Assembly: GCF_910592395.1 (NCBI RefSeq)
Contig: NC_088312.1
Span: forward strand, 16,935,292 to 16,999,291
From: Lineus longissimus
Lineage: Eukaryota; Nemertea; Pilidiophora; Heteronemertea; Lineidae
Direction of reading: 5' to 3'
DNA: 64,000 bases
Shown: positions 21,001 to 50,090 of the stretch, in pieces
Layout of the letters: every line of letters begins with the position of its first letter
How positions within the stretch are numbered: position 1 is the first letter of the stretch
The notes under the pieces: model-generated
What the model saw: only the letters and a program-made list of their open reading frames with translations
Told to the model about the DNA's origin: nothing
Databases searched by the model: none
Made by a program: the position numbers and the translations under genes

Positions 21001-22035
21001 CAATATTAATTACTGTACTAATCGGTAATAATGAGGATACTAGGAATGGTACAAGGAATCAATCAAATCACAATATGCCTATCGATAAATCTCAAGGTTT
21101 GACGGAGGGAATGAAACCATATAGCTAAATATTACGACTAAGCGAATAGTCGTTTATAATACGTAACCATACATACGGATACAAGGAATCAATGAAATCA
21201 CAATATGCCTATCGATAAAACTCAAGGTTTGATGGAGTGAATGAAACCAGTATAATAGGCGTTTATAATACGTAACCATATATACGCATCAAGAATATGA
21301 AAACAAATGTATATAATTCACAACATAAGCAAATAAATGTGACGATAATGAGTGTAATTGTATCAATATTAATTACTGTACTAATCGGTATTAATGAGGA
21401 TACTAGGAATGATACAAGGAATCAATCAAATCACAATATGCCTATCGATAAATCTCAAGGTTTGACGGAGTGAATGAAACCATATAGCTAAATATTACGA
21501 CTAAGCGATAATAGGCGTTTATAATACGTAACCATATATACGCATAACGAAGATGAAAACAAATGTATATAATTCACTACATAAACAAATAAATGTGACG
21601 ATAATGAGTGTAACTGTGTCAATATATTACTGTACTAATCGGTAATAATGAGGATACTAGTAATGAGGATACAAGGAATCAATCAAATAACAATATGCCT
21701 ATCGATAAAACTCAAGGTTCGACGGAGTGAATGAAACCATATAGCTAAATATTACGACTAAGCGATAATAGGCGTTTATAATACGTAACCATATATACGC
21801 ATAAAGAAGATGAAAACAAATGTATATAATTCACAACATAAACAAATAAATGTGACGATAATGAGTGTAATTGTATCAATATATTACTGTACTTAATCAG
21901 TAATAATGAGGATACTAGGAATCAATCAAATAACAATATGCCTATCGATAAAACTCAAGGTTCGACGGAGTGAATGAAACCATATAGCTAAATATTACGA
22001 CTAAGCGATAATAGGCGTTTATAATACGTAACCAT
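1..22035. repeat. AT-rich satellite array with long and short monomers
   Basis: The whole interval is made of one repeat family. Units open with taatacgtaaccata and recur about every 260 bp (starts near 1, 390 and 650). They alternate irregularly with short units of about 130 bp (for example 261-389) that lack the middle part, from gcataacgaagatg to the first gaggata. Larger blocks are also repeated: private variants such as gatggtgttaatgaaacc (near 7057 and 10659) and gaaaagaaatgtatat recur exactly 3602 bp apart, so kilobase segments were duplicated after the monomers diverged. The array ends abruptly at about 22035 and runs off the left edge. Short open frames of 61-64 codons recur on both strands because the monomer recurs; they are not genes. 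Confidence 0.95.
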
Positions 22036-22084
22036 ATAAATACATTATCAAGTTATGAGGTCTTTTTCTGTATGAAACCTTTAC

Positions 22085-22127
22085 TGTGGGGCATATCTCG
22101 CTGGTGGTCCATATATAATGCCCCACA
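22085..22127. repeat. tgtggggcat / atgccccaca hairpin
   Basis: The 10-bp arm tgtggggcat (22085-22094) is the exact reverse complement of atgccccaca (22118-22127). A shorter relative lies at 22266-22292, and diverged ones near 23496-23542 and 39377-39426. The phrase gccccaca also occurs twice in each intron of the 520-bp exon array. It looks like a small dispersed foldback family; no function is evident. Confidence 0.55.
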
Positions 22128-22265
22128 ATTTTTTCAACGTTTTTCAGACCCCTTTGGCCTCATGGGACACCGTAGTGTCACTCTCCAATAACTCTGTTTT
22201 ATACACACTTGTCCCGTTTTAGTTCCAACTTGCAGTCTAGATGGCACTACGTGTACTTTTGTCTT

Positions 22266-22292
22266 TGTGGGGCATATAATTACTGCCCCACA
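22266..22292. repeat. Short gccccaca hairpin
   Basis: The arm tgtgggg faces ccccaca across 13 bases. It belongs to the same small palindromic family as 22085-22127. Confidence 0.45.
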
Positions 22293-23005
22293 TATTTATC
22301 ATCGATAGTGGGATTGAAAAATTTGTGGGATATATAATATGTTATAAAATTTTTAAGCGCTTGCAGGCAACTTTTACAGTGGTTTCTCTTTATCGCATCA
22401 CTAAACAAACGAACATCGCTCTGTGAGGATGGCATTAGGCAGGTTATGGGGTCATTCAAGCATTATATTATGCAAACTTTTGGGGTATTTTAGACCCCCC
22501 ATCTGGAAAGAACCCCTGCCCGTGTACGCCCCCCCCCCCAGCTGCGTATTTAATACTTGAACGACTCCTTACGTAGCCCAGAACCTCCAGACAGGTTTAA
22601 AAATGTGCGTATTTGGAATTAAATAAACTATGCCCAGATTTTGTCGTTTAGGAATGAGGTTCAATTATCATATTCTGGGATTTTTTTCTGGGGGAGGCCC
22701 CAGACCCAGCCCCAGACCCAGGCTCTGTCACCCCCCCCCCCCCGGCGCCCCACAATTTTTGTACGTGCCCTGATTGGGCAGATCCCTTCCAAGTGTCACG
22801 CCTTTTAGCTCCGTTGCTCCAGCAGTCAGCGAGAAAAAAATATATTAGAGAAGTTCAGACTCCGACTTAGCATTGTGATTGATTTAAACTGGTCATTTCG
22901 AGACATCTTTAATCAAACTAATTTGAAAACGGCTTCATACTATAGACCATATTTCCTGGTTAAAAACTATGCAAACTATTCATTGGAAGTGTGCCTCAGC
23001 CACAA

Positions 23006-23068
23006 ATAATGAAGTCGTATTCCAAGCCGGGGAGTGCTGGCTTCCGACTTGAAATACGACTTCATTAT
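23006..23068. repeat. 63-bp perfect-stem hairpin
   Basis: A 16-bp arm ataatgaagtcgtatt (23006-23021) is exactly reverse-complemented at 23053-23068. An inner aagcc/ggctt pairing lies between the arms. It resembles a foldback element or a transcript hairpin; no coding sequence is present. Confidence 0.6.
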
Positions 23069-24697
23069 ATCCGCCATTATGCTAACGTCTAGATTAGAAT
23101 TTCAAAAGTTCCTGTGGACAAAGATTTGGTTCAACAATATTTGAAAGTGTTCTTTAGTTCAACTCAGTCGAAAGCATCACTATAAGACAAAATGTGAGTC
23201 GGAAATTCACCATCGACCAAACGATGAAAATGGCAATATTTGATAGTTCTTGGGCATTAAAAGGGAATGGATAAACACCCTGTTCATTTCTGTCCGCAGA
23301 AAGATACTGGTTTTAGTAAAAGCTTTTTATTGGGGAGAGTTTTGTCCATTAGGCTTTATGGTATACCCCACAATTTTCACTCTCGTAGTTTTGCTTGATT
23401 TCAAGAAACGCATCGTCCAAAATTACCGTACAGTGCTGCCACCTTTGGACCAATTGAAAACAAAATATATGTGATTTTTTTACAAATGAAACCTGTCTTG
23501 TGGAGTATCTAAAACTACGGGACGTATTCAATGCCCCACAAATTATATACACTTTTGGGAATGGACATTTTCTACAAAATGAAACCTGTCCTGTGGGGCA
23601 TCCAGAAATAGGGGGCATTTTTAATACCCTTCGAGATACCGGTTTCAGGGGCACAGCTAGTGAGGGGACAGGGCTCAGCACTATGCCCCCCCCCTCGCCC
23701 AGCGATCCCGACAAATTTTGTTTTTCATGCAAATATTGGCCGAAAATGGCAAAATAGTGCCCCAAAGCAGCAATTTATGTATTAGTGTTGCCATCCAGGG
23801 TCTGTCTGCAAATCTCAATCACATCCGCTTCTGCTTGTCCTTGATTTCATATCCACTACAATTTATGGTCTCAAGAATGACAGTGGCAAGGAAAGTGCAT
23901 TAACAGACGAGATTTGCAAATTTGTCTTTGGTGTAATACTCGCAAAATTCCTAGATGACTACGGCGAGACAAACCGTCATCTCAAACGAGACAATACAGC
24001 TATAGATCAGATGGTGCCTACACAACGCGGGGTAGGGGGTTATTTCCAGAGATTGTCGCCTGTTATAGGACCACCATTCGTCTTGGCAACACATGGTGCA
24101 TTATTTCGAGATGATTGAGATACTAGTAGATATCATTTTTAAGACACCATTGGTGGCCTCTTGTGTGTCAATTCCGTCGACATCATGTCTTCGGTAATGG
24201 ATTGTGCTGTGTTATGCTGGTCTCCGATAATCTGTCCTCAACAACGTTGGTGGAGCTAGCTTTGTGCAGTCAAAAGTACCACGGGTTTTTATAGCTGCAA
24301 AGATGTCTCACCTCATTACCGTAAAACCTGCTTACCGCATGTTAGACACAGCCAGTGGTCACCCGCATTAAAGGACGTTTTGATGTCCTCTGAATTACAA
24401 TGATTCCTTTGTTAAAATGTGTCTTACGTAGTGCCGACTTTGAGATACCAAAGTTCTATTTCAGCAGCCCGATTCTGCAGTCTCTGCTAGAAATGGGCCC
24501 AAACTGTTTGCCATTGACCCGCTGTGGGTGCTAGTGTAGGCCTAGATGTAGAGGCTAGGCCCTAGTACCCGTCTTGTTAGTTTGGGTCCGGGCACATGCA
24601 CGCCGCCATTGGCTTTAACCCTCGATCGATCCTGTCTTCATTTTCAGTTGTCAGTGTTTTGAGTGGTACACTGACAAGGAAGTCGTCTTTGTATTAA

Positions 24698-26416
24698 AAT
24701 CCAACGATGTTGGTTGTGACTAGGCCCTGTGTCGTCTCCTCCTCACCCACAATGTTGGTTGTGACTATACCTGATACGACCAGGTCTTGACCGTCCCTGT
24801 ATTGTCTCCTCCTGATCACCCACAATGGTGGTTGTGACTTTGTCTGATACGATCAGGCCATATTGGCAGTACCTATGTCGTCTCCTTCTCGCCGACAATG
24901 TTGGTTGTGACTATGTCTAGGTCCTATTGACAGTCCCTGTGTCGTCTCCTTCTCACCGACAATGTTGGTTGTGACTATTGTCTAGGTCCTATTGACAGTC
25001 CCTGTGTCGTCTCCTTCTCACCGACAATGTTGGTTGTGACTATGTCTAGGTCCTATTGACAGTCCCTGTGTCGTCTCCTTCTCACCGACAATGTTGGTTG
25101 TGACTATTGTCTAGGTCCTATTGACAGTCCCTGTGTCGTCTCCTTCTCACCGACACTAGTGGTTATGACCATCCCATGATTCCACAATGGTGGTTGTGAC
25201 TATACCTGATACGATCAGGTCATATTGACAGTCCCTGTGTCGTCTTCTCCTCACCAACAATGTTGGTTGTGACTATGCCTAGGTACTGTTGACAGTCCCT
25301 GTGTCGTCTCCTTCTCACCGACAATGTTGGTTGTGACTATATGCCTAGGTCCTATTGACAGTCCCTATGTCGTCTCCTTCTCACCGACAATGGTGATTAT
25401 GACCATCCCATGCCTCCACAATGTTGGTTGTGACTATACCTGATACGATCAGGTCTTGACCGTCCCTGTATTGTCTCCTCCTATCACCCACAATGGTGGT
25501 TGTGACTTTGTCTGATACGATCAAGCCATATTGGCAGTCCCTACGTCGTCTCCTTCTCACCGACAATGTTGGTTGTGACTATGCCTAGGTCCTGTTGACA
25601 GTCCCTGTGTCGTCTCCTTCTCACCGACAATGGTGGTTATGACCATCCCATGCCTCCACAATGTTGGTTGTGACTATACCTGATACGATCAGGTCATATT
25701 TACAGTCCCTGTGTCGTCTCCTCCTCACTGACAATGGTGGTTTTGACTATATGCCTAGGTCCTATTGACAGTCCCTATGTCGTCTCCTTCTCACCGACAA
25801 TGGTGGTTATGACCATCCCATGCCTCCACAATGTTGGTTGCGACTATACCTGATACGATCAGGTCTTGACCGTCCCTGTATTGTCTCCTCCTGATCACCC
25901 ACAATGGTGGTTGTGACTTTGTCTGATACGATCAGGCCATATTGGCAGTCCCTATGTCGTCTCCTCCTCACCGACAATGTTGGTTGTGGCTATGCCTAGG
26001 TCCTATTGACAGTCCCTGTGTCGTCTCCTCCTCACCGACAATGTTGGTTGTGACTATGCCTAGGTCCTATTGACAGTCCCAGTGTCGTCTCCTTCTCGCC
26101 GACAATGTTGGTTGTGACTATGCCTAGGTCCTATTGACAGTCCCTGTGTCGTCTCCTCCTCACCGACAATGTTGGTTGTGACTATGCCTAGGTCCTATTG
26201 ACAGTCCCTGTGTCGTCTCCTCCTCACCCACAATGTTGGTTGTGACTATACCTGATACGATAAGGTCTTGACCATCCCTGTATTGTCTCCTCCTATCACC
26301 CACAATGGTGGTTGTGACTTTGTCTGATACGATCAGGCCATATTGGCAGTCCCTATGTCGTCTCCTTCTCGCCGACAATGGTGGTTATGACCATCCCATG
26401 CCTCCACAATGTTGGT
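24698..26416. repeat. Minisatellite, about 64-bp unit
   Basis: Tandem units contain gtccctgtgtcgtctcc, ccgacaatgttggttgtgac and tatgcctaggtcctattgaca, about 64 bp each. Longer variants carry tatacctgatacgatcagg or gaccatcccatgcctcc. Unit types are mixed, which suggests a history of higher-order reshuffling. Frames open on the minus strand (25381-25566 and 26160-26378) are by-products of the repeat. Confidence 0.9.
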
Positions 26417-26736
26417 TGGTGAAGTCAGTCAGCAATAAACAAAAACAACTTCACTTCTTCCTTCCCGAATTATAGACTTTGTATAGCCTACTATTAAGCC
26501 CATAAGTATAGATTTATAGACCCAGTAAAAATACCCCATTGCCCATAGCCCATGGAAGTATATACATGTAGCTGACTTCCCAAATCGCGAATTCCCTCTA
26601 TAATAGACAATGGACCTACTGTGGAGCTACAATGAGCTAGCTCCATAACCAGATGAAGTCACTTCGTTTTTTTGCATCAAAACACGCTCGACTGTTTGAG
26701 ACGGCCCCCTCCATTTAGCTTTTACCTGGCAAGATA
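26417..26736. other. Putative upstream region of the SET/recombinase gene
   Basis: This is non-repetitive sequence between the minisatellite and the proposed first ATG. I see no clear TATA box or initiator. It would hold the promoter and 5' UTR if the first-exon call at 26737 is right. Confidence 0.3.
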
Positions 26737-26811
26737 ATGAGACGATCCCCGCGACTCTCCCACTCAAACACGATGCATGCATCCAATATGGAAGTACGAA
26801 GCAGCATGAAG
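26737..26811 (+). CDS. Putative first coding exon
   Basis: An ATG at 26737 opens 25 codons beginning MRRSPRLSHSN and ending at a strong donor, atgaag|gtaagt, in phase 0. The next exon (28844) also enters in phase 0, which is the main reason to call it. The peptide is short and basic and has no known motif. The frame stays open past the donor to 27105, so an unspliced reading is possible, but that extension shows no domain. The true start could lie elsewhere in intron 1. Confidence 0.4.
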
Positions 26812-28843
26812 GTAAGTTTTGGTTATGCTCCTGATTGTTTATATAGCCATCTGTTTAATATGTGCCACAGGCCTGACGATGATAACAATCAAATCCTCTG
26901 CGGTATGTTCATAATGTTTTTTAATCGAAAAGTAGGGCCTAAGACTAGATCTAATGCATCTTTTTCAATAATGTGTCAAAAACACGAGCCGACATGGCCG
27001 AGGCCGGGCGAGGGCGAGGCCGGCTGCTGTCTCAATGCTCAGTCAGTAGGGTCAACTCACTACAGATCTATGAATACCGCCTACAGACGCCAAACTTTCG
27101 GCTAACCCCATAATTTCGGACGGCCCACTTTTATATGTAGGCCTCTCCCGTATCCAAGCCCTTTGCCCACACCTTCTCATTCTCCCGCGAGTGATGCATG
27201 GTCATATGCGCGGAGCATGCATGTGATTTAGCATACTAGGTCATATGATGTAGTGTTCAGCTATGGCCACGCCCGAACGACCAGTGTAGAAGTTTGAACC
27301 ATGCTGATTTTATTTCTTGAACCAGAAGAGTTCATTGCAAGCTACCAATGTTTCTCAGATAAAGAATATGACTTCACCGATTTGGAATACCACGGATTAA
27401 ACTGCATTTGTTTTTTTGATACTGAACTGATGACTTTCTTCTGGCTGTTGATTGGCTCATTGACACTGGGATGTCAATCCTATTACTGTTGCATCAACAA
27501 TAAGTTATTGCTGTGGCATGTACTCGAAATGGTAAGAATAAATGATTCAGGACAAGGCCAACATCCCTCATTAGTTGTGTTTGGAACTAAATTTTGTGCG
27601 GCCACCTCAATTACCAAAAATTAGTAAAAAAAAAATTAAAAAATTTTGGGGGTGGTGGCCCCAAAAAGCCCCCTCCTTGGGATGGCGGCCCCTGGGGTCA
27701 GGGTGGCGGCAGGTACCCTGCTAATACTAATAGGAGTTGGAGAACACTGTAAACATCCAAGTAATATCTCGATGGTAAGATAAAGTGGATGGCAACTTTT
27801 GACTGACATGACAGATAGAATAGATTAATAGCCAATGCAAGGAAATTCAGAAACATGTTATGTTAATTTAATAATAACCAATTTACAAATAACAATTTAT
27901 TATGTTGTGACATCACTGTACACCTGTTCACGTAGCTTGAGAGGGGGAGAGTTACATTGTGGCACTGCCTTAGGAATTAGAGACTGATTCAGGGTTCTGC
28001 CGGTGCCAGTGGTGGTCGGCAGTGGACCCTGTCCACTACACCACTTGGCAGAATACAGGAAAATCTGTCCACTTAATATACTTTTGTTTTAGCCAAGTTT
28101 CAAAAATTGTAAAAAAACAAAAAAGAACAAGCGTATTGTGTTTTTGAGCCATCCGAAAAGTTGGGTCCCGTGATTTTCACAGATTTGTAACGGTAAAACT
28201 GAGAGCCACCATCGATCAAATTCATGCGCAGTGCAGTGGAGTCAGTTTTTCGCGCATAATGATCAGATGAATGAACCTCTTATAAATACATGTAATGGTA
28301 ATGATGACCATATAATTTGTAGAACGTATAGTAAACGCGAGCTACTGTCATATCATTTTATTCATTGCCTATATCTTGCCTGTCGTGCTACCACGGCTAC
28401 AGTACGTTGACCGCGGCTGGAAATCGTTTGGTGGCGCAACGATCACTCCGCATAAATTATCTACGGGCTATTTACCCGATACGCTGCGTATCATCGATGA
28501 AGTATTTGGTCTCCCAGTCCCAGCATTACGGTGGCACGCACCGCTTTCACTTTAACAACGCAGCAGGCTGCCGTATTTGCCTTTTTCCAGATAAAACAAC
28601 ATAGAAATTGGGTCTCACTCTCAGATGCTTGGAAATCGCATATAGAGCCTTCTCAAATTCAAATATTTCTGGCATGTCTGGGGAGGGCCACCAGACCCCG
28701 GTTGGGCGGTGCACATCGGTAGCTTCACCTATGCTCTGTTTTCCGTCCACCTCTAATTTCAACCTGCCCTATGATTCAGTGTGTTAATCCCATACTTCGA
28801 TTATCAATAAATACTTATTCTGAACTTTCTTTTCTTAATACAG
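26812..28843 (+). other. Putative intron 1, including a small unassigned open frame
   Basis: No repeat array or recognisable domain is seen. An open frame of 107 codons (27301-27624) starts MLILFLEPEEF and has a hydrophobic stretch (FFWLLIGSLTLGC). A donor-like atg|gtaaga falls inside it near 27530, so it could be an unrecognised exon. Nothing else supports it. GC-rich simple sequence follows at 27640-27715. Confidence 0.3.
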
Positions 28844-28943
28844 ACAAGGGGAAGGCGAGGTGAAAATGGTGCTGATTTTGAAAAGAAGGAAATGCTGGAT
28901 TGTTGTAGTAGTCTCCAAATGAATTTTTTTGGTCCGAGAAAAG
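28844..28943 (+). CDS. Pre-SET linker exon
   Basis: The acceptor aatacag precedes 100 bp that read in phase 0 as TRGRRGENGADFEKKEM and on to FFGPRK, then stop at the donor aaaag|gtagga in phase 1. Joining to the next exon gives ..PRK-GRGITA.., the usual entry into a SET domain, where Gly-x-Gly lies in the cofactor-binding N-terminal strand. The exon is 12 bases upstream of a foldback element. Confidence 0.75.
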
Positions 28944-28955
28944 GTAGGATTATAG

Positions 28956-29080
28956 ATCCATGCACTTGATTGGGGAAAACATTTCGAAGATGTCGCGTCA
29001 CGGTAATGTAAAATGCATGGTGACACGACGACGGCCAACACTACGTCATGTAAACGTTGTCCCCAATCAAGTGCATGGAT
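28956..29080. repeat. Foldback element in a SET-gene intron
   Basis: The 20-bp arm atccatgcacttgattgggg (28956-28975) is perfectly reverse-complemented at 29061-29080. Weaker pairing continues inward. It is about 125 bp long and begins 12 bases after a splice donor. It looks like a tiny MITE; no clear target duplication is visible. Confidence 0.7.
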
Positions 29081-29328
29081 AGGAAGAAGCACATTTTCAA
29101 ATTCCTTTGCATCATTCATTTCAGGTCATACAGGTTGTGATTCTGGGCAAAGAACATCTTTAATCCAAGTGCACAAACCAAACATATTTCTGAAAGTTTT
29201 AAGTCTAAAGTCAGTCTTTACCCTAATGCCCCATGAAGAAAGTTTGGATATGTTTACAACCATACAACAGGCAACAGAAAGTGTCTAACTACAATTAGGC
29301 CTATTTCTTCAAAATTGTACATTTTCAG

Positions 29329-29494
29329 GTAGAGGTATAACTGCCACACACGATATAAAATCAGGAACATTTCTGCTGCGGTACTCTGGCGAACTCATTA
29401 CAAGTGATGAGGGTGACCGTAGAGGGCTCCAGTACAAAAAAAGGCAACTGGGCAACTATCTATATTTTTTTTCCCACCGTGGAAAAGAATGCTG
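29329..29494 (+). CDS. SET domain exon 1 (KMT5A-like, N-terminal half)
   Basis: Flanked by attttcag and ctg|gtaagg, this 166-bp exon enters in phase 1 and leaves in phase 2. It encodes the first half of a SET methyltransferase domain: GRGITATHDIKSG (cofactor-binding strand), LLRYSGELI, a charged DEGDRRG segment, and GNYLYFFSHRGKEC. The order and spacing match the KMT5A/SETD8 (H4K20 monomethyltransferase) type, recalled from memory. SET enzymes transfer a methyl group from S-adenosylmethionine to lysine. The second half follows at 29899. Confidence 0.85.
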
Positions 29495-29898
29495 GTAAGG
29501 CAGTTCTTTAATACATATGACATGATTGCCTTTTGGATAGCTTAAAGGTTGGAATCACACTGACACTAGCGCTGATTAGCCAAGCTATGGACACTAGTAG
29601 TGACTAGCGTATATGGGTCTTTCCGTCATTTTGAATCCAGTAAACTGTGCAATAAACACTACAGGTGCAGCCTGAGCTGTTTACACATGGAACATGTACA
29701 AGGAAATGTGTGACTTCAGACTATAGATGACTAGAAAATTTGCGTTTGCCAAACAGTGAGTTTGGAAAAAATTATGGCGATTTTGTGCTTGCCGATTGGC
29801 GAGTTCGTTAGCAAGCTCATGGGGTTAAGTACAATCTGCCGTACCAAAAATCATCATCTTCCACCATGATTACAAATGATTTATGTCGATTTTCTCAG

Positions 29899-30088
29899 CA
29901 TTGATGCCACTTCAGAAGTGTGCCTGGCGAGACTAGTGAATGATGCCAAAGGGAGGGAGAGGAATGCCAAAGTGCAGAAGATGGTAACAAATGGTCAGCC
30001 TCATCTCTGCCTGTATTCCACAAAAGAAATACAGAAAGGGGATGAAGTTGCGTATGATTACGGCGAGAAGGATTTGGAGTGGAGAAAG
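29899..30088 (+). CDS. SET domain exon 2 (KMT5A-like, catalytic half)
   Basis: The acceptor attttctcag and donor aag|gtatgt bound 190 bp that continue the SET frame. The junction restores KECC-IDATSE, resembling the C-V-DAT segment of KMT5A. Then come LARLVNDAK, HLCLYSTKEIQKGDE and the conserved AYDYGEKD, whose tyrosine is catalytic in SET enzymes. Odd point: the usual Asn-His-Ser after the LI/LV pair reads Asn-Asp-Ala (Asp codon 29942-29944), so the cofactor-contacting histidine is replaced. I recall the same Asn-Asp form in related fish proteins, so it may define a subfamily rather than decay. No post-SET cysteines are visible, as expected for KMT5A. Confidence 0.85.
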
Positions 30089-30499
30089 GTATGTTGTGGA
30101 TCCAAAGATGATTAGTATGGGTGGTTATATTCCCGCAGATTTTCACATTTTCTGTAAATCAATTTTGTCTAGTTTACCCCCCTAAGACGCTTGGTGGCTC
30201 CCTTCCCCTTGTGTCGTTCCTAGGCCGGGAATCTGGTAAATTTACAAGTAAGATGACACCTGTGCACCTGTAGATGACAACATTGTCAAATTGAATGTGT
30301 GTTCAGTTGGGAGATTGATTCTTTTGGTTTTTTTGTTTATTTAACCGAAATACTCATACTCATAATACTTCTAAACTTATGGATTGTGCACAGTAGATAG
30401 TTTGGTTGACACTCACCCAGCTTCCCAGCTTGAAGATATTTTATCCTCAAAACGCTTGAACTTGTGAGCACTAGTTTATTGGACTCATTTTAATTTCAG

Positions 30500-30533
30500 G
30501 AGCCAGGAAAAACCATTGACGATATTGATTCCT
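30500..30533 (+). CDS. Short linker exon after SET
   Basis: A 34-bp micro-exon between taatttcag and cct|gtaagt. It enters in phase 0 and leaves in phase 1, encoding EPGKTIDDIDS. Support is splice motifs and phase only; it carries no domain. Confidence 0.6.
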
Positions 30534-31411
30534 GTAAGTACAAGTAATAGTTTTGGCATGGTACCCCCAAATAAAGGCCCTAATGAAAAATAATCGGGAT
30601 ATTCAGGGCAACTGCCCCCTATAGAGCTCTAGCTGGGATTTTTGATGCATCCCAAAAATGCATTTTGGCATAGAGAAGTGTAGCATAAGAAACTGGTCTT
30701 CTTGAGAAGCTGATGTGACGAGCATGATCCGAGTGCTGACAACAGTGCATTATTAATATTCAGATAATCAATTCAGCTTTTAAAACAGTTTGGCAAAAGT
30801 GCTTATAATAGAACGTTGTCATAATAGTTGTATTATACAACACAGTCAGCCGGCCACGGGCTGCTTTCAGGTGAATTCTCTGACCACTCTGACGTCATTT
30901 TTTGCTAATCAACATAATTTTAGGTGGCAATTTTGCGTGATTTGGCACAGTTTGGAAATTGCTTGTTATCTCTATCAATCCTGCAAACAACCCATGAAGC
31001 CGCATGGCATAGATTTATATGACCTTAGCATATAGGTAAAGTAAGACGGTGATTAATTTCAATTCGGCGTTTTAAGACGGGGTTGACCCCAAATTTGACA
31101 TAAATTTTTTGAATATTTGTGCTTCTTCACCTGAATAGAAGATGAAAAATATGGTTGTCCAAGTTTGAAAGATCAATTTATCGTTATAAATGGTATCAAT
31201 ATCAACCTCTGTAAAAATGGTATCATACTTTTATCAAACACTTGTTGTGGTGCAAGGTTTTTGAATCGTGCCAGACTCATTTCGATTTCAACTTTCCACC
31301 CCTAAAATCCTGATTGATGACATTATCAAACACTTCTTGTGGTGCAAGGGTTTTGATTCATGCAGTTTGCCTGGTGTGAATATTCTATTCTAGTGGGCTC
31401 TTCACTTTCAG

Positions 31412-31494
31412 GGAGGCTGTTTCTAATCCAGCTCAATCATGACATCAGCCATGCCATTTGCGTTAGCCAACAGGGAGCCGAAGGAGTTGAACAG
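31412..31494 (+). CDS. Linker exon
   Basis: An 83-bp exon between ctttcag and gaacag|gtcagt. It enters in phase 1 and leaves in phase 0, encoding WRLFLIQLNHDISHAICVS followed by QQGAEGVEQ. No domain is recognised. Phase agrees with both neighbours. Confidence 0.55.
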
Positions 31495-31918
31495 GTCAGT
31501 GTCTGACCTTTATTTATTTATAGTCTTTAGTTTTAAAGAGTCAGTAGATTAGAGCCACACTGCTTTGCATTATGCGTAGTCACACTCACAGCGAGCATTT
31601 AAAACTACCCAGAAACATCTGAGCCGAAATCGGGTCACTTATGACTTCTACTTTTTGTCTACTGGCCCATTTACGTTTTGCTGGCAAATCTGCCAAATAT
31701 CGCATTGCATCGTTTTGTTTCGATTCGTTAATGCCAGAAGAGTACGTGGTTCTTGCCTTGCGGGCACAGACCCTCTTTCCCCAACAATGTTCGCAAAGCT
31801 CCCCTTAAATCGTGAATCGCAAATAGCGGGTAAGCTAGGCGATCGTGTTGCTTTATTCACTCATTGTTGCTTCTATAGATCTAAAGCAGTATAACCCTAG
31901 ATGAATACGTGCTTAGTT

Positions 31919-31964
31919 ATCTCCACTGAAGAGAGACTGTGGTAGTCTCGGCTTCAGTGGAGAT
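31919..31964. repeat. Intronic hairpin
   Basis: The 13-bp arm atctccactgaag (31919-31931) is perfectly reverse-complemented at 31952-31964 across a 20-base loop. It lies in the intron between linker exons. Confidence 0.5.
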
Positions 31965-32374
31965 ACCACAGTGCCTCTTCATACCATCCTTCCCGACGAC
32001 CGCAGTCGTCCTCCACCCCACCCTCAACCCTCAAAATTATCATTCCTCTGGATCAGAGAATGTAGTCCGAATGAATCATCCGAATGTCCACAACTCCACT
32101 AATGGTCATGATCAGCTAGCCTGAACACTGACATAAAATTTAAAGTTAAGTCCGAAAAAAAGTAATCTCATAGGCATTGGCAATTATAGCATTTATATGT
32201 TGAAATAAATAAACAAGCACCACAATGTAATATAATCTGTCCGACGTTTCGGTGTATTGAACCTTCTACTGGGAATTATAGCATTTATAGTCAACATTTC
32301 CTCTCCACAAAGCCTATCAAAAGTTGTTAATTCGTTTAGTTTTATAATCATACCTAACCTTTTTGTACTTGCAG

Positions 32375-32488
32375 GCAAAACTCTTTACCAGGAGGACCTT
32401 AAGTATGATAATCCAACAAATAGAAGCAACACCAGAATTTTTAATTGGCCTCGAAAACGTCCCTCAACTCTTGTTAACATTTAACGAG
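32375..32488 (+). CDS. Linker exon, helical
   Basis: A 114-bp exon, phase 0 on both sides, between gtacttgcag and aacgag|gtgagt. It encodes a leucine/isoleucine-rich segment that includes MIIQQIEATPEFLIGLENV and PQLLLTFNE. This is probably a short helical region. No family is recognised. Confidence 0.6.
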
Positions 32489-32926
32489 GTGAGTCATAAA
32501 AGGGCCATTTAGATGGCAGATGAAAGGAATGCATTCAGATCTGATTCTGATGTAAACATAATGAACTGTCTTAAACACACTTCTCGTGCAATAAAGCTTG
32601 AGAGAAGAAGCTACGCTAATGCACCCAGGTAAAACGAATCTGGATTCAGTATCGATTTATGTGCCCATACTAAGGGGTCATGCCCAGTGTTATTTGTTCC
32701 AATCGCAGAGGTTGAACAAAAGGTTTAGCACAAATCAGCCACATGACCCGACCGAACGTCAGAAAATCAATACCGGTAATAAAATTACCAGTTCTGGTAC
32801 TGGTAGACTCCCGCGCTTCATTTAGATTGGAGGATACTCCACTCGACTCCATTCATCATTCCGCAAAGGCTGCAAAATTAAGAAGTTCGAGAAAATTTCT
32901 GGGAAATCCTGTCCTTTCTTTTACAG

Positions 32927-33029
32927 TGTACAAAAAGTCACGATGAAGAAACAAGGAAGAGTGCCGAAATCCTTCTTGTGAAGTTTAAAAAATCAAAGAA
33001 TAGACCGGACAGTAACAATCTGGAGGAAG
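32927..33029 (+). CDS. Basic/acidic linker exon before the exon array
   Basis: A 103-bp exon between tcttttacag and gaag|gtatat. It enters in phase 0 and leaves in phase 1. It encodes CTKSHDEETRKSAEILLVK followed by a Lys-rich stretch and NNLEE. Its phase-1 exit matches the phase-1 entry of every repeat exon downstream, which ties the SET half to the repeat array. Confidence 0.65.
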
Positions 33030-33289
33030 GTATATAAAGATAAAAATATTTTGAACTGTGATTTGTCATGGATGGGACAGTTGCTGCCAGTGCTAAACAC
33101 ATGTAACACTTTGTCAGGCACAATTGATATGCTTTTACAATAGCATATTTATACTTGATAGCCAGTAAATCACAGATGGCAGGCACAAAACGAACACTGT
33201 CTGACACTTAATCAGCGAAACACTATTCTCAGGTTTGCGCAAGTGTTCTCATGTGAGCCTTTTAATACCATGACAAAGGGTCCATCGTT

Positions 33290-33740
33290 AGACATGGGTG
33301 GCACGTTTCAAAAGCCACTGAACTGAAACTTGGTACAAATGTGCCCCTGAATGACCCCTACTCGGAGACCGAACTGCGGCCTTATATGCTTCATAGGTTG
33401 GCCACCAGGGAGCCATCAAATGTCAAAAGTGAAAATGTGCGATATCTCCCTTGATACTTGTTCGAATATTTTGAAAAAATATATGGTACGGTAGTAGGTA
33501 CTTCTAGCAAGGGTACATCACATATCTTTTGGGTTTTTATTTGACCTACTTTTCAAGGTCACTGAGGTCAAAGTCTTCTGAAACAGCAACCTCGTTGGAC
33601 AAAGAGTGTATGTTTTGTGACCACTACCTGACTGTCGCTTCAAACCTCAAACTTGGTACCAGTACAAATGCAGCAGTTATTGTCCATTGGTGATTCTCTC
33701 CTCTTCATGCCATTGTTGGTGTAAGACCATTTCATTTATG
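33290..33740 (-). mobile_element. Fragment of a dispersed element (E2 family)
   Basis: This stretch shares phrases with 47418-48530 and 48840-49250, such as gaaacttggtacaaatgtg, ggtacttctagcaagggtacat and gacctacttttcaaggtcac. Relative to the element at 47418-48530 it reads in reverse. Ends are not defined; it is a degenerate intronic copy. Confidence 0.5.
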
Positions 33741-33761
33741 TAAGATAGGGGGTGATGTATG

Positions 33762-36700
33762 AACACCTATTGTCTCAACTGCTTCAGCTGAGCTCCAGAC
33801 CTTTGTGGCCCTTGTGTTTTAACCATCAATTACCGATATATGCCCCACATTTTGGAAACGCCCAACAAGGAAGGTTTCATTCATTGAAAAATTACCATAA
33901 ATGCTTTGACCATTTCACTGTTTTGTTATTTAGAGTTTATAATATTTTCAGTTGAAAAGCAACCATTGGAAGCCTCTGCTGGCATCTCTGCAGATGATCT
34001 GGACATTAATGGCCCTGATGAGGAGCTGGAAGACACACATGGTGAGTTTGTTTTTGAGTGCTATATTAAGCAGTCAGAGTGGCAAACAGCAGATCCTCTC
34101 TATTTAAAAAAGGACACCTCTGCAACTGAGAAATGCTGTCCTTGATAGGGAGGTGTCCTGATTACAGAAGTCAAGTTGTATATAAATGATTCCATTTGGG
34201 ACCATCACTACTGCCCCTAGTTGTACACAGGACTGACTGTCCTGCTAAGAAAGGTGTCTGCAAAGGGAAGTTCCAATAATTACACCTATTGTCTCAACTG
34301 CTTCAGCTGAGCTCCAGACCTTTGTGGCCCTTGTGTTTTAAACCACCCATTACCGATATATGCCCCACATTTTGGAAATGCCCCACAAGGAAGGTTTCAT
34401 TCATTGAAAAATTACCATAAATGCTTTGACCATTTCACTGTTTTGTTATTTAGAGTTTATAATAATTTCAGTTGAAAAGCAACCATTGGAAGCCTCTGCT
34501 GGCATCTCTGCAGATGATCTGGACATTAATGGCCCTGATGAGGAGCTGGAAGACACACATGGTGAGTTAGTTTTTGAGTGCTATATCAAGCAGTCAGAGT
34601 GGCAAACAACATATCCTCTTTATTTAAAAAAGGACACCTCTGCAACTCAGAAATGCTGTCCTTAATAAGGAGGTGTCCTGATTACAGAAGTCAAGTTGTA
34701 TAGAAATGATTCAATATGGGACCATCACTACTGCCCCTAGTTGTACACAGGACTGACTGTCCTGCTAAGAAAGGTGTCTGCAAAGGGAAGTTCCAATAAT
34801 TACACCTATTGTCTCAACTGCTTCAGCTGAGCTCCAGACCTTTGTGGCCCTTGTGTTTTAAACCACCCATTACCGATATATGCCCCACATTTTAGAAATG
34901 CCCCACAAGGAAGGTTTCATTCATTGAAAAATTACCATAAATGCTTTGACCATTTCATTGATTTGTTATTTAGAGTTTATAATATTTTCAGATGAAAAGC
35001 AACCATTGGAAGCCTCTGCTGGCATCTCTGCAGATGATCTGGACATTAATGGCCCTGATGAGGAGCTGGAAGACACACATGGTGAGTTTGTTTTTGAGTG
35101 CTATATTAAGCAGTCAGAGTGGCAAACAGCAGATCCGCTCTATTTAAAAAAGGACACCTCTGCAACTGAGAAATGCTGTCCTTAATAAGGAGGTGTCCTG
35201 ATTACAGAGGTCAAGTTGTATAGAAATGATTCAATATGGGACCATCACTACTGCCCCTAGTTGTACGCAGGACTGACTGTCCTGCTAAGAAAGGTGTCTG
35301 CAAAGGGAAGTTCCAATAATTACACCTATTGTCTCAACTGCTTCAGCTGAGCTCCAGACCTTTGTGGTCCTTGTGTTTTAAACCACCCATTCCCGGTATA
35401 TGCCCCACATTTTGGAAATGCCCCACAAGGAAGGTTTCATTCATTGAAAAATTACCATAAATGCTTTGACCATTTCACTGTTTTGTTATTTAGAGTTTAT
35501 AATATTTTCAGTTGAAAAGCAACCATTGGAAGCCTCTGCTGGCATCTCTGCAGATGATCTGGACATTAATGGCCCTGATGAGGAGCTGGAAGACACACAT
35601 GGTGAGTTAGTTTTTGAGTGCTATATCAAGCAGTCAGAGTGGCAAACAACATATTCTCTTTATTTAAAAAAGAACAACTCTGCAACTGAGAAATGCTGTC
35701 CTTAATAAGGAGGTGTCCTGATTACAGAGGTCAAGTTGTATAGAAATGATTCAATATGGGACCATCACTACTGCCCCTAGTTGTACACAGGACTGACTGT
35801 CCTGCTAAGAAAGGTGTCTGCAAAGGGAAGTTCCAATAATTACACCTATTGTCTCAACTGCTTCAGCTGAGCTCCAGACCTTTGTGGCCCTTGTGTTTTA
35901 AACCACCCATTACCGATATATGCCCCACATTTTAGAAATGCCCCACAAGGAAGGTTTCATTCATTGAAAAATTACCATAAATGCTTTGACCATTTCATTG
36001 ATTTGTTATTTAGAGTTTATAATATTTTCAGATGAAAAGCAACCATTGGAAGCCTCTGCTGGCATCTCTGCAGATGATCTGGACATTAATGGCCCTGATG
36101 AGGAGCTGGAAGACACACATGGTGAGTTTGTTTTTGAGTGCTATATTAAGCAGTCAGAGTGGCAAACAGCAGATCCTCTCTATTTAAAAAAGGACACCTC
36201 TGCAACTGAGAAATGCTGTCCTTAATAAGGAGGTGTCCTGATTACAGAGGTCAAGTTGTATAGAAATAATTCAATATGGGACCATCACTACTGCCCCTAG
36301 TTGTACGCAGGACTGACTGTCCTGCTAAGAAAGGTGTCTGCAAAGGGAAGTTCCAATAATTACACCTATTGTCTCAACTGCTTCAGCTGAGCTCCAGACC
36401 TTTGTGGTCCTTGTGTTTTAAACCACCCATTACCGATATATGCCCCACATTTTGGAAATGCCCCACAAGGAAGGTTTCATTCATTGAAAAATTACCATAA
36501 ATGCTTTGACCATTTCACTGTTTTGTTATTTAGAGTTTATAATATTTTCAGTTGAAAAGCAACCATTGGAAGCTTCTGCTGGCATCTCTGCAGATGATCT
36601 GGACATTAATGGCCCTGATGAGGAGCTGGAAGACACACATGGTGAGTTAGTTTTTGAGTGCTATATCAAGCAGTCAGAGTGGCAAACAACATATCCTCTT

Positions 36701-37902
36701 TATTTAAAAAAGGACACCTCTGCAACTGAGAAATGCTGTCCTTAATAAGGAGGTGTCCTGATTACAGAGGTCAAGTTGTATAGAAATGATTCAATATGGG
36801 ACCATCACTACTGCCCCTAGTTGTACACAGGACTGACTGTCCTGCTAAGAAAGGTGTCTGCAAAGGGAAGTTCCAATAATTACACCTATTGTCTCAACTG
36901 CTTCAGCTGAGCTCCAGACCTTTGTGGCCCTTGTGTTTTAAACCACCCATTACCGATATATGCCCCACATTTTAGAAATGCCCCACAAGGAAGGTTTCAT
37001 TCATTGAAAAATTACCATAAATGCTTTGACCATTTCATTGATTTGTTATTTAGAGTTTATAATATTTTCAGATGAAAAGCAACCATTGGAAGCCTCTGCT
37101 GGCATCTCTGCAGATGATCTGGACATTAGTGGCCCTGATGAGGAGCTGGAAGACACACATGGTGAGTTTGTTTTTGAGTGCTATATTAAGCAGTCAGAGT
37201 GGCAAACAGCAGATCCTCTCTATTTAAAAAAGGACACCTCTGCAACTGAGAAATGCTGTCCTTAATAAGGAGGTGTCCTGATTACAGAGGTCAAGTTGTA
37301 TAGAAATGATTCAATATGGGACCATCACTACTGCCCCTAGTTGTACACAGGACTGACTGTCCTGCTAAGAAAGGTGTCTGCAAAGGGAAGTTCCAATAAT
37401 TACACCTATTGTCTCAACTGCTTCAGCTGAGCTCCAGACCTTTGTGGTCCTTGTGTTTTAAACCACCCATTACCGATATATGCCCCACATTTTGGAAATG
37501 CCCCACAAGGAAGGTTTCATTCATTGAAAAATTACCATAAATGCTTTGACCATTTCACTGTTTTGTTATTTAGAGTTTATAATATTTTCAGATGAAAAGC
37601 AACCATTGGAATCCTCTGCTGGCATCTCTGCAGATGATCTGGACATTGATGGCCCTGATGAGGAGCTTGAAGACACACATGGTGAGTTTGTTTTTGAGTG
37701 CTATATTAAGCAGTCAGAGTGGCAAACAGCAGATCCTCTCTATTTAAAAAAGGACACCTCTGCAACTGAGAAATGCTGTCCTTGATAGGGAGGTGTCCTG
37801 ATTACAGAAGTCAAGTTGTATAGAAATTATTCAATTTGGGACCATCACTACTGCCCCTAGTAGAGAGGGTGTCCTGCTAAGAGAAGTATCTGCAAAGGGA
37901 AG
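33762..37902 (+). repeat. Eight-copy 520-bp tandem array carrying one exon per copy
   Basis: A 520-bp unit is repeated eight times with no length change; the exons start exactly 520 bp apart. Each unit has an intron 3' end, a 90-bp exon and an intron 5' end. Copies 2, 4 and 6 share ggtgagttag and acatat variants; copies 3, 5 and 7 share tttcattgattt and a D-type exon start. So the last expansion moved in 1040-bp dimers, with copies 1 and 8 as edge hybrids. Introns are almost as conserved as exons, which implies recent amplification or homogenisation. Each intron carries two small inverted repeats (aggacacctc/gaggtgtcct and caggac/gtcctg). Confidence 0.95.
33952..37681 (+). CDS. Eight tandem 90-bp symmetric exons encoding an acidic 30-residue repeat
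   Basis: Exons: 33952-34041, 34472-34561, 34992-35081, 35512-35601, 36032-36121, 36552-36641, 37072-37161 and 37592-37681. Each follows attttca-g (aatttca-g in copy 2) and precedes catg|gtgagt. Each is 90 bp and phase 1 at both ends, so any number can be included or skipped without a frameshift. The encoded unit starts EKQPLEASAGISADD and continues LDINGPDEELEDTH; the split codon gives V (copies 1, 2, 4, 6) or D (3, 5, 7, 8). The unit is strongly acidic and probably disordered. Changes are few: N to S in copy 7, N to D and A to S in copy 8, and silent changes. All eight frames and splice sites are intact. Function is unknown; an acidic spacer or histone-binding tail is speculation. Confidence 0.85.
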
Positions 37903-39766
37903 AATGGTTATCATAGATCTGTGCCTGTGATCACCTTTTCAATCCAAATGTGGTTTAACCTAATTGCCCTAGCCATGTGCCTACATCAACTCTTGCACTT
38001 GCGATGGGTGCTCGCTCATCAGCAAGACTATGAGACATGAAGCAAGCACAGCTCTACTCTGCTTTCTTCTCCAACCTTCTAGATTTTTCCATCATGCCAT
38101 CGGCCAGCACTTAAATGATATATTATATCCATAGGCCTACCAGTATGTATCAGAGAAAAGACAATTGGCCACAAAATTTTGATCTCGCCTCCTGGGCTAG
38201 CCCTTTGTTTACTTAGAAGTTAATTGGACATTCCATTAGGTCTACAGGTATTTTTGTTCGAAGTGGCTATGTACACAGCAGTCTGTCGGCGTCATCATCG
38301 TCCGTCAACAATGATGGTGGCACGTTTGCTTACCTTTGAGCCTAGGAAGTTGAAACTTGGTGTGTGGCTGTCTTATAACAACATGACTTGACATACAAAA
38401 AATCATCGCCAATTGATCTTGATTCCAATTTGTGTTGTCATGGTTACATTCTACCTTGAATTTTAGGGGGTGTAGGCCTTGAATACTGTCTCCCACTTAA
38501 TCATTCCCAGGTGAGCACAATGTCCCCTGGACATTTCATATAACTTCGTGTTACGTGACAACCAGACTAGGGTGTCTTGTAGCACTTCACTTTCTGAAAA
38601 ACGGTATTGCCTTCTTTCCAGACTATACCACCCCATGCTGTGTCATCTCCCCTGATGGATACATCTGTTGTTATAACAATTGTGGGTTCTCAAAGATGTA
38701 TTCCAATTCGTGTCTAGGGCATTGTTGAGGTTGTCATTTCTATTCATCCACCATCAAGAGCTGGACAGTGGTTTTAATGGGTTGGTTACCCCATTCCATC
38801 CATCCATTCCACTTGATATTGTCTACCAGCAAGATTTCCTCAATTCCCTCGTGCACATAACTCACCTTACATTTGCTGAATGGTTTGCTCATCCTCTCTG
38901 TTGCCGTGGCAGGTTCACCGTGGCCTTCAGTCTTTTTTGCCATCAGAATGCTTTTGCACTATTGAGTGATCTGTCTCACCCTAACCAGAGACATTCCTAG
39001 CCAGTGGTGTAAACCTTTTCAAGCTGGAGAATAGATAGCATCTGATTTATTTCCACATGAATCACCAACAATGGAAACTTGGTTGTAGTTTTCACCGCTT
39101 TCATGACCATGTGATCATGTGAAAGCAACAGGTACTTCGATTAATTGGTGAACTCGGCCAGGGGCATCCTGTGTCTGTAGACTAGAGGGAGTTAATCATC
39201 GAGCAAAATGAGTCCACACACTACCTGCTGTCATTACAAAGATACATGGTCAGTCAGTGTATGACCTGGTTCTGGGACGATGAGTATCTGGCAATCTAGT
39301 TTTACATTCAATTTCAAGGGTAGAGATACTGTTTTATGGTTGCTGAATCTTGGCCCCTGACAGAGAGACTTACATTTGGGGCATAGTTCAGGTGTGGGAC
39401 ATATATAAACTGCTAATGCCCCACAATTATGAGCTCCACTTCCATGTATTTACATCTTATGTGCATGTGTTGACCTAAAACTTCCCTGAGAAGGCCCGGA
39501 TCCGAGGATGCCTGGAAAGTGTACCGGGTGCGGTAAAGCAGAAGGTTAGAGCATTGTGCTTGCAAAAGAGTTAAAAGGGAGCAGAGATTGATAATGAATG
39601 GTGGATTTTTGTGCTGGTTAGTTTTGCTGGCAAATATGGCATTATAATGGTTCCCATTTCAGCTAAATGAACTATTTCATTTGCCCATCCTGAGCAATCA
39701 CTCTGCACCTCATTGGGTAATTTTTCTGCACTTGTCTTTTAATCTGTCTTCTTCACTGTATTGCAG
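37903..39766 (+). other. Intron between repeat exons and recombinase exon
   Basis: No exon is recognised. It contains a dispersed-element fragment near 38270-38545 (ending aggtgagcacaatgtcccctggacatttcat), a gccccaca foldback near 39377-39426, and a weak tRNA-like stretch near 39526-39575. A 106-codon open frame at 38680-39000 has no domain and no matching splice sites. Confidence 0.45.
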
Positions 39767-42231
39767 CTAATTGGAATAAAGATAATGAACCTGATGTTGA
39801 AACCTCAATGGATTCTGGACATGCCACAGAGAGTGATGGTTCAACGGTTGGTTACGATGAACATGATGATGACGATGATTCTGTAAAGGATCCTGATTAT
39901 AAGCAGGGACCGAACGATGATTTAACGGACTCGGATGGTGACTCTGAATCTGATACTGTGATCATTGAAAATAGTGCAGATGATGAAGCCATGGACTGCA
40001 ACGAAGCTGATGATCATCATGGGGAGAAACGTAAGGCAAAGAAAAGTGTTCCACGGTACAGAGATGGTAAAAGCGATATAAAGAGACAATGCAGTGACTT
40101 GGAAAATAGTGCAGACAGTGTAGACATGGATTTAAATGAAGCTGCGGAAGATCATGTTGGGGAGGCACTTAAGGCCAAGGTGAAAATGCAGTTTGCACAC
40201 ATAACTGTTCCGCAGCACAGCGATAGCAAAAGTGAAAAGAGAAATTATAGTAAAAGTGACTATTGCCTTTATTGCGAGAGGCGATACCAATCAAAGATTT
40301 CAGTTCACTATCTTGCAGTTCATTGGAATGAATCGGATGTAAAATCAGCACTCATGGCTCCTGTCAAATCTGTTGAAAGAAAAAATGCCCTCCTTCTTTT
40401 GCAGAATAGGGGGAACTTCAAGCACAATGCAAAGTGCATTGAATTGGGTGAGGGAGAATTTGTTGTTTCCAGGCGGCCAAGTGAAAAACGTGACAGAAAA
40501 GCACACGATTTTTTGCCATGTGAATACTGCGTGGGCTTCTTTTTGAAGGATTCTCTATGGCTTCATATGAAAAACTGTCCCATCAGACCACGTGGAGAAC
40601 AACCTGAAACAAACTGTCTCCGAAATGCAAGAATCATGCTTGAACCATTTCTGCGCACATCTTCAACTGACGAAGAAAGTGAAATGATTGATGATCTCAT
40701 CAATGCCATGAAAGAAACCAAATCTAACCCAGGGATTAGAAAGATATGCTTTGATGATCCCTTGATAAGGGAATTTGCTGCATCTGTTCTGAGTAAAGTG
40801 GGTGAAATCGAAGACCAGAGGAGAAAAGATCTCATGAACATTCGCCAAAAGGTGCGATCTCTTGGCAGACTACTGAAAGCCCTTAATGAAGGATTAGGGG
40901 CTCTTCGGAAACCATTAACCTACTTTTTAAGAGCTAGACATTTCAAATTAGTTGTGAAAACTGTTAAGCAGCTTGCAGCAGAGAGTGGTTCCCCACAGCT
41001 TGCGATTGTGCTCGGCCATTACATCAAACAGGCTAATCTTCTTAAGATTAGCTTGGGCATGCGAGAAGACTCGGAGGAAATGCAGCGAGAAGCCAGATGC
41101 TTCAAGGAAGAATATGAAGCTCATTGGAATAATCATGTAGCTTCTGTTAGTGTGAGAAAACAGAAGTTGCTCAAGATCAATAAGTCTGAAAATATTCCTT
41201 CTACAACGGATTTGGTCAGGCTGAAAGACTGGCTCTCCACAGTTATATGCAAAGCCATGCAGAGGACAAACCAATCTAATGATGATCTGAAATGGCTAAG
41301 TCAGCTAGTGTTGACAAGAATTGTCTTGTTTAATAAGCGCAGAGTGAGCGAGGTAGAAGAGTTGAAAGTGAGTGACTTCCTAGGGAGAAAGAGCGAGAAG
41401 GATAATGAAGAAATACTAGCATCTCTTGATGTCAGTGAAAGAGTCCTGGCAAAAAGAATGGCACTGATAGAGGTGAGGGGGAAGAGTACCAGGTCACTTC
41501 GCAAAGTCTTCATCTTACTTTCTCCAGACATGGTAGAACAGATTGAGTATTTGATAAAAAAGAGGAAGATCATCAGCCCATATGTGTTTTCAAGACCGAG
41601 AGAAATTAATTCACCCATAGATGGCTGTGAAGCAATCCGAGTGGTAACGAGCAAATGCCCTATGCTCAGAAATCCAGGGAGTATCCGAACCAGGGGATTA
41701 AGGAAATACATGGCCACCACTGCACAAATAATTGACATGTCCGCCAATGAATTGAAGATGGTAGCAGACCACATGGGCCATAATGTCAACATCCACACTG
41801 ACGTGTACAGATTGCAAAGCTCAGTGCTTGAACGAGCAAAGGTTGCACGTGTTTTGATTGCCATGGAGAATGGTGTCATCAATAAGTTCCAGGGAAAAAA
41901 ACTTGATGCCATTAACATTGAAGAACTTCCTCCCCCGGTTTCCATAAATGATCAGCTGGAAAGAGGTGACCAGTTAGAGAGCAGGGAACTTACTTGTGAT
42001 GATGTCGATGGAAGCAGTCCATTTGATGGAGAACCACAACCAAGCTGCTCAGCTACTGGGGTTGCAGATGATCAGAAGTATGGCAGTCAAAAGAGAAAGA
42101 TGGTTTCCACTGATGACGGCATGTTCAAAACTAAGAGAGCAAGATGGTCTGAAGAAGAAAATGGCATATTGTTCAGGTACATGGATAAATACATGTGGAT
42201 AATTATGCTACTGTTCATTCCTCAATCCTGA
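39767..42231 (+). CDS. Zinc-finger / tyrosine-recombinase exon
   Basis: The acceptor attgcag at 39766 enters in phase 1, matching the repeat exons. Numbering from the in-frame ATG at 39808 gives 807 codons. Residues 1-145 are acidic, with NSAD repeats. A C2H2 finger is C153, C156, H167, H172; a second finger is C2HC type (C238, C241, H253, C257). The C-terminal half reads as a tyrosine recombinase: R512 (RRVSEVEEL), K559, R632 (RGLRKYMAT), H658 (DHMGH) and the nucleophile-like Y667 (TDVYRL). The usual His of the H-x-x-R box is R629. A likely donor, ttcag|gtacat at 42176, would cut off the last 18 residues just after a SANT-like start (RARWSEEENGILF). Otherwise the frame stops at 42231. The family resembles Crypton-like recombinases; whether it still acts on DNA is unknown. 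Confidence 0.85.
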
Positions 42232-49563: not shown

Positions 49564-49780
49564 CAGGCCTTGCCTTTTGAGGAGCTCAATCACTCTCAAG
49601 GTCCATCACTCCCTCGATTTCCACTGAGGAGAACTATTTACCACTTCCCTCAATTTCCCAATCACCACTGTCGTAACCATGTGAGGAGAGTGATTCACTC
49701 TCCTGAATTTGTTCACTCTCCTGAATTTGTTCAAGGGAGAGTGAAAAAGCTCTCCTTCAATTTTCAAATGGCAAGGCCTG
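49564..49780. mobile_element. 217-bp foldback element with 6-bp target duplication
   Basis: The ends caggccttgcc and ggcaaggcctg are exact reverse complements, and imperfect pairing continues inward (gaggagctc / gctctcc, cactctc / gagagtg). The element is flanked by TCATTG on both sides (49558-49563 and 49781-49786), a clean target duplication. It has an internal tandem of cactctcctgaatttgtt. It lies 58 bp before a SANT exon. Confidence 0.8.
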
Positions 49781-49838
49781 TCATTGATGGTTACAGCAGA
49801 TGATGTTTACAAAAGAAAGTCTGTGATTATTTTTCTAG

Positions 49839-50024: not shown

Positions 50025-50090
50025 GTAAGGTTGCAATAAGTGAACTTGATCACTGCAGAAAGTGACCAATTCTGACAAAAGGATGCCATT

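Follow-up and report, generated by a model that had tools for sequence, protein, structure and literature searches.

Introduction

The kringle IV type 2 unit of the human gene LPA contains exons. It is an intragenic repeat of variable number, which in LPA sets protein isoforms (PMC6314250). Tandem exon duplications, as in Dscam1 and obscurin, multiply an exon together with its flanking intron and keep the phase (PMC9013439), and Crypton DNA transposons combine a tyrosine recombinase with direct repeats of 4 or 6 bp at their ends (Kojima and Jurka, 2011; PMC3212892). Here, we compare with these systems a gene in a 64,000-nucleotide stretch of the genome of the nemertean Lineus longissimus (assembly GCF_910592395.1, contig NC_088312.1, positions 16,935,292 to 16,999,291, forward strand), hereafter the window. 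The gene encodes a SET domain and a tyrosine recombinase part, and carries between them a tandem array of eight near-identical exons, to which an earlier note, made from the letters of the window alone, had drawn attention.

This gene is part of a recently mobile, Crypton-like tyrosine-recombinase element of L. longissimus. We read the locus as a symmetric coding exon repeated in tandem, in variable number, within the gene of this element; the exons would be spliced in cumulatively, and the probability that we attach to this reading is about 0.66.

A tandem array of symmetric exons

All eight array exons of the window are 90 bp long, preceded by AG and followed by GT, in phase 1 at both ends and free of stop codons (8/8; starts at 33952+520n). 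The spacing between their starts is exactly 520 bp in seven of seven intervals, and their phase is compatible with the upstream exons, from 26737 to 33029, and with the last exon from 39767, giving an in-frame join to both flanks. On these points, namely intact splice sites, phase, open frame, spacing and fit to 33029 and 39767, the earlier note was right. Its 30-residue acidic unit also stands, but the repeated segment, 33763-37902, is longer than the span of the exons that it had given, and the first codon of the unit varies between V and D. The unit peptide resembles V/DEKQPLEASAGISADDLDINGPDEELEDTH, with variation at that first codon and at a few other positions. V and D exon types alternate along the window array, so that the growth unit visible there is mostly a 1,040-bp pair. 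Ten of 29 residues in the array reading frame are acidic, a content reached by none of 2,111 open (overlapping) 87-bp windows from the non-coding parts of the element, which places the frame beyond chance.

Variation in array length among element copies

A whole-genome search placed the 520-bp unit at eight loci on seven contigs, with full units 95-100% identical, and gave no further full copy beyond these loci among the matches listed. By blastn, the element copies hold 10 (C15), 8 (window), 7 (C8a and C10), 6 (C6) or 5 (C8b, C11 and C9) array exons, and each of the 53 exons is 90 bp long, bounded by AG and GT, and open. Unit lengths are 517, 519, 520 and 531 bp, with the differences confined to introns, and one unit of C10 is interrupted by a 5.75-kb insert. 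Array length differs even where the recombinase exon is identical: C6 and C10 show 0 differences over the 2,428 bp of that exon, yet they carry six and seven array exons, respectively. The recombinase exon of C8b, which has five array exons, differs by two bases from that of C6 and C10. Written as strings of unit classes, the arrays of one subfamily contain repeated pairs and that of C15 a triplet in duplicate, an order that fits changes by one to three units per step. Unequal exchange or slippage between units may drive these changes. The 53 exons encode 12 distinct peptides, the commonest of which occurs in 25 of them. Variation in copy number, which the earlier note had suspected between individuals, was found in another form, from 5 to 10 among element copies at eight loci of one assembly.

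A dispersed, Crypton-like element

The same eight loci carry the recombinase exon at full length, matches to the SET exons and matches to the left end of the element, the latter from the first base at seven loci and from base 12 at C8b. The left boundary falls on the same base in all five loci whose left flank was examined, with flanks that are unrelated by eye, and the right boundary lies at the same point in six of the seven loci looked at, the 1-kb piece for C11 having missed the end. TATA stands at both ends in all four copies in which both were seen. The window copy is cut at 42194, and C6, C15 and C8b continue for 3.1 kb, and C10 for 3.6 kb, past the matching point. With nested inserts included, C6, C15 and C10 span 29.0, 26.4 and 33.0 kb. 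Terminal inverted repeats in the C6 copy amount to an end-anchored match of only 9 in 20 bases and a weak inner inverted match (P=0.02). Seven other open frames of the element gave no Pfam match at E<=0.01, and one more open frame, 26719-27105, gave none at E<=1; the scan did not extend to two frames of at least 90 residues in the 3-kb tail of C6.

The association of SET and recombinase parts extends beyond these copies. Of 42 recombinase places, 27 have a SET match on the same strand no more than 45 kb away, among them 19 of the 34 outside the 8-copy subfamily; the 45-kb limit was our choice, and the 42 recombinase and 49 SET places were merged by hand from 69 and 114 matches. A protein of the clam Mya arenaria (P0019) also carries both parts. 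Taken with the 27 paired places, it indicates that the pairing belongs to a family rather than to one locus. The SET/recombinase gene proposed in the earlier note stands, along with its view that both parts lie in one gene, that the acidic spacer is of potentially variable length and that growth was recent, but the setting is a dispersed mobile element and not a single host gene.

The SET/recombinase gene

The predicted product would begin with a KMT5A-like SET domain and a linker, continue with the acidic array and zinc-finger-like motifs, and finish with a tyrosine recombinase and a weakly Myb-like end (Table 1). After splicing, the SET domain is complete (PF00856, E=2.4e-16, positions 1-105 of 105) and is nearest by sequence, among solved structures, to KMT5A/SETD8 (residues 56-172 aligned, E=6e-19). 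The residues aligned with the NHS motif of KMT5A, which we take to be part of its active site, are NDA in the window protein and NNA (by eye) in the M. arenaria protein. Given NDA for NHS, methyltransferase activity of the SET domain appears doubtful.

The last exon has neither stop nor gap over 2,428 bp in all eight copies, and its open frame measures 866 residues in seven of them and 820 residues, with a foreign tail, in the window copy. Its zinc-finger-like motifs, identified by eye, are of the CCHH and CCHC types. Among 25 aligned proteins, the tyrosine-recombinase residues R, K, R, H and Y are conserved in 25, 24, 23, 24 and 22, respectively, at positions assigned by eye. At E<=0.01, only 2 of 25 family proteins match Pfam PF00589, and when a profile of the recombinase family was searched against solved structures, all four matches lay over the zinc-finger part, with no recombinase among them. 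Because the profile finds no solved recombinase, the assignment rests on these residues, on the weak Pfam matches and on the name that one source gives to P0013 (Tyr recombinase domain-containing). The Myb-like C-terminal end of P0001, the protein of this element, matches Pfam below the cut-off.

Exons outside the array differ from the window copy by 22 amino-acid-changing and 20 silent substitutions (N22:S20), where approximately 75% changing would be expected under neutrality (P=0.0011), and are under purifying selection. In this count, SET and linker exons were taken from 4, 5 or 8 of the 8 loci, and common differences were counted once.

Table 1. Features of the element, its gene and the exon array, in window coordinates.
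Feature	Position	Strand
Crypton-like SET/tyrosine-recombinase element copy, 20 kb, 3' end missing	22035..42194	+
Element left end: TATA at 22035-22038, then AATACATTATC; inserted in 260-bp satellite unit	22035..22060	+
Putative first coding exon, start codon uncertain	26737..26811	+
Exon, SET domain region begins	28844..28943	+
SET exon	29329..29494	+
SET exon with NDA where KMT5A has NHS	29899..30088	+
Exon, present in P0007	30500..30533	+
Exon, present in P0007	31412..31494	+
Exon, present in P0007	32375..32488	+
Exon directly before array, phase 1 end, present in P0007	32927..33029	+
Tandem array of 520-bp unit (exon and intron), 8 copies, final copy ~21 bp short	33763..37902	+
Array exon 1, V type	33952..34041	+
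Array exon 2, V type	34472..34561	+
Array exon 3, D type	34992..35081	+
Array exon 4, V type	35512..35601	+
Array exon 5, D type	36032..36121	+
Array exon 6, V type	36552..36641	+
Array exon 7, D type, N to S	37072..37161	+
Array exon 8, D type, A to S and N to D	37592..37681	+
Last exon: acidic stretch, two zinc-finger-like motifs, tyrosine recombinase; Myb-like end lost in window copy	39767..42194	+

Predicted use of the array exons and alternative explanations

Cumulative use accounts most simply for 53 intact symmetric exons. Because all of them keep their splice dinucleotides and any number of them preserves the frame, we infer, with a confidence of about two in three, that at least some transcripts include the array exons cumulatively. 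Array donors score 10.3, compared with 5.7-12.5 for the eight other donors of the gene model (by frequency-based scores). Each included unit would add 30 acidic residues between the SET and DNA-binding/recombinase parts, amounting to 150-300 residues for 5-10 units. As a guess, such an acidic spacer could act as a flexible tether for chromatin or in self-inhibition of the recombinase.

Several observations weigh against this reading. The only NCBI-derived protein found for the locus, P0007 (LOC135488563), joins 33029 to 39767 and omits all eight array exons; it is identical to the window-derived model in 329 of 330 compared residues, with the odd one at its own splice end, begins inside the SET domain, its first 8 residues being read from just before the 29899 exon, and ends after an internal donor at 40231. 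P0001, which lies on the contig of C6, begins inside the last exon, and the array unit occurs in none of 85 proteins found by protein searches (admitting lengths 451-1435, 291-924 and 314-997, with the best 8,000 candidates scored in the first and third). The comparison of nonsynonymous and synonymous change (dN/dS) between copies that the earlier note had proposed gave N11:S6 among the 53 exons, indistinguishable from neutral (P=0.30) and without a signal of selection. Array exon and intron also vary alike, with 13 of 90 versus 58 of 430 sites variable (P=0.87) in 44 of the 53 units, the last and interrupted ones being omitted. The array by itself is no proof of selection. Its acceptors have the poorest pyrimidine tracts in the gene model (0.47-0.53 versus 0.59-0.88). 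At the level of the whole gene, the HxxR motif lacks its tetrad histidine in 25 of 25 aligned proteins (T in 17, R in 8), and in C6, C10 and C15 the length of the first modelled exon departs by 4 bases from that in the window, so that the modelled N-terminus, the least certain part of the gene model, may be wrong; the second modelled exon (28844..28943) differs in length in the same three copies by 3 bases, or one codon. The join in P0007, the like variation of exon and intron, the 85 proteins and the weak acceptor tracts would all be expected of a silent intronic repeat, in which the exon was formerly used, transcripts now join 33029 to 39767 and units multiply neutrally within a 6.7-kb intron. 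Such a repeat is harder to reconcile with the retention of length, phase, frame and splice dinucleotides in 53 of 53 exons, a weak argument with only 17 changes seen, and with an acidic content not matched by open windows from non-coding DNA of the element. Annotation pipelines frequently mask a unit that occurs some 53 times, or fail to place its reads. Because the array unit may have been lost from annotation in this way, the skipping model is weak evidence: the protein models speak weakly for a skipping form and lend no support to inclusion. We consider the silent repeat rather unlikely.

The remaining alternatives concern how exons are chosen and how the copies arose. Of the splicing modes that the earlier note had entertained beside cumulative use, skipping is represented by P0007, and mutually exclusive splicing, in which a single exon per transcript would leave the spacer constant, is unsupported: with so few distinct peptides, nearly identical to one another, the choice would alter little, the phases permit any number of exons, and one folded array intron is hardly more structured than its shuffles (-102.2 versus -97.3, standard deviation 6.0, 30 block shuffles). 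We regard it as highly improbable. An origin of the eight copies by segmental duplication of a host gene, rather than by insertion, would suit an intron-rich gene and a unit as long as the 26-33 kb spanned, with nested inserts, by C6, C15 and C10. However, the copies share their start and end bases amid unrelated flanks, carry TATA wherever ends were seen, occupy eight places on seven contigs and contain a recombinase gene, and there are other multi-copy relatives, all of which makes duplication very unlikely. Near-identical units are also difficult to assemble, and an array could be mis-joined, over-expanded or collapsed. The three arrays measured span 3.7 kb (window), 4.8 kb (C15) and 9.0 kb (C10, including its insert), shorter than the 12-20 kb to which HiFi (high-fidelity) DNA was sheared (PMC8593623), and several of the eight arrays have their own unit order and variants. 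An assembly artefact is therefore scarcely credible, and the array can be taken as a true feature.

Spacer repeats in relatives

Tandem growth of the spacer may not be unique to this subfamily. Among the 25 of the 85 proteins in which 70 or more residues precede the zinc finger, 13 show an internal repeat in that stretch, each reaching the minimum P that 60 shuffles allow (0.016); the shuffles keep composition only. As a control, the stretch after the zinc finger showed an internal repeat in 0 of 23 of the same proteins (40 shuffles). The 13 include nemertean, oyster, scallop, zebra mussel and catfish proteins, and the clearest repeats are those of Crassostrea virginica P0010 (55 residues, 98%) and P0033 (48 residues, 90%) and Clarias P0047 (35 residues, 97%). 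Two of the 13, P0051 and P0061, are weak, the repeats of P0002, P0006 and P0068 are low-complexity runs, and P0001 comes from the element described here. In P0033, a long near-identical repeat is also seen by eye after the recombinase domain. At the one close-relative locus checked (C16:10437369), the 4 kb preceding the recombinase match contain neither an array nor a clear unit-like exon, so that the array could be confined to the 8-copy subfamily.

A broader picture would be that of a self-diversifying transposon, in which a built-in coding variable-number tandem repeat gives each insertion its own spacer length and spacer growth by tandem duplication is a repeated habit of the family. We offer it tentatively, as possible but on balance doubtful. 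If the array exons are used, one genome would hold a natural series of spacer lengths of the same protein (5, 5, 5, 6, 7, 7, 8 and 10 units), and it would be directly testable how spacer length affects a recombinase or chromatin protein. Such use would also suggest a fast route by which a mobile element can alter its own protein with the frame unbroken.

Further features of the element and window

A 260-bp satellite of approximately 22 kb (281-22038) precedes the element, the left end of which is inserted there at a TATA. Inside the element, a 64-65 bp minisatellite (24717-26391) apparently differs in length among copies. At the other end (42185-42199), the window copy is cut directly after the 10-base ATAAATACAT, which is also present at the element left end. 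The 3' loss could have involved recombination at ATAAATACAT, but the sequence to the right of the cut resembles another repeat, which makes plain deletion the simpler explanation.

Exon duplication of another kind is seen in copy C15, where the non-symmetric 83-bp exon (31412-31494 in the window) occurs twice, at C15:1543032 and C15:1544850, 1,818 bp apart; in contrast to the array, use of both copies would shift the frame. Another subfamily has repeated SET and linker exon matches upstream of a recombinase match, at an interval of 5,100 bp (C1:15986883 and C1:15991983). Downstream of the cut, two exon-like, phase-1, acidic pieces at about 43746 and 44303, recognized by eye, are perhaps remnants of another family member. 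An open frame at 49745-50065 is Myb-like and resembles the C-terminal end of P0005, a distant relative of the recombinase, and a transposase-like open frame lies on the reverse strand at 52554-53381 (HTH_Tnp_4 match, with a DDE_Tnp_4 match below the cut-off). A second satellite, of 173 bp, occupies 57318-63972.

Comparison with known systems

The SET domain of the Lineus gene aligns with that of KMT5A/SETD8 in solved structures and differs from it by NDA in place of NHS. The titles and abstracts of the literature searched describe no SET domain linked to a transposon-type tyrosine recombinase, and the main text of the Crypton paper has no match to SET domain or methyltransferase (PMC3212892). 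With Cryptons, the element shares a tyrosine recombinase, short terminal direct repeats (here TATA), the lack of long terminal inverted repeats and dispersed copies. Unlike them, it is at least 20 kb long and intron-rich and contains a KMT5A-like SET domain and a tandem exon array. Its family also lacks the HxxR histidine of the R-H-R-Y tetrad (25/25), which is why we call the element Crypton-like and do not file it as a Crypton.

As in the tandem exon duplications of Dscam1 and obscurin, an exon and flanking intron are multiplied with the phase kept (PMC9013439). The Lineus units differ from these in being near-identical, in lying within a mobile element, in their differing count among dispersed copies and in being known from DNA alone. 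LPA offers the likeness of a variable-number repeat within a gene (PMC6314250). There, a 5.6-kb unit varies in a human host gene and yields many protein isoforms, whereas the Lineus unit measures 520 bp and varies among element copies only.

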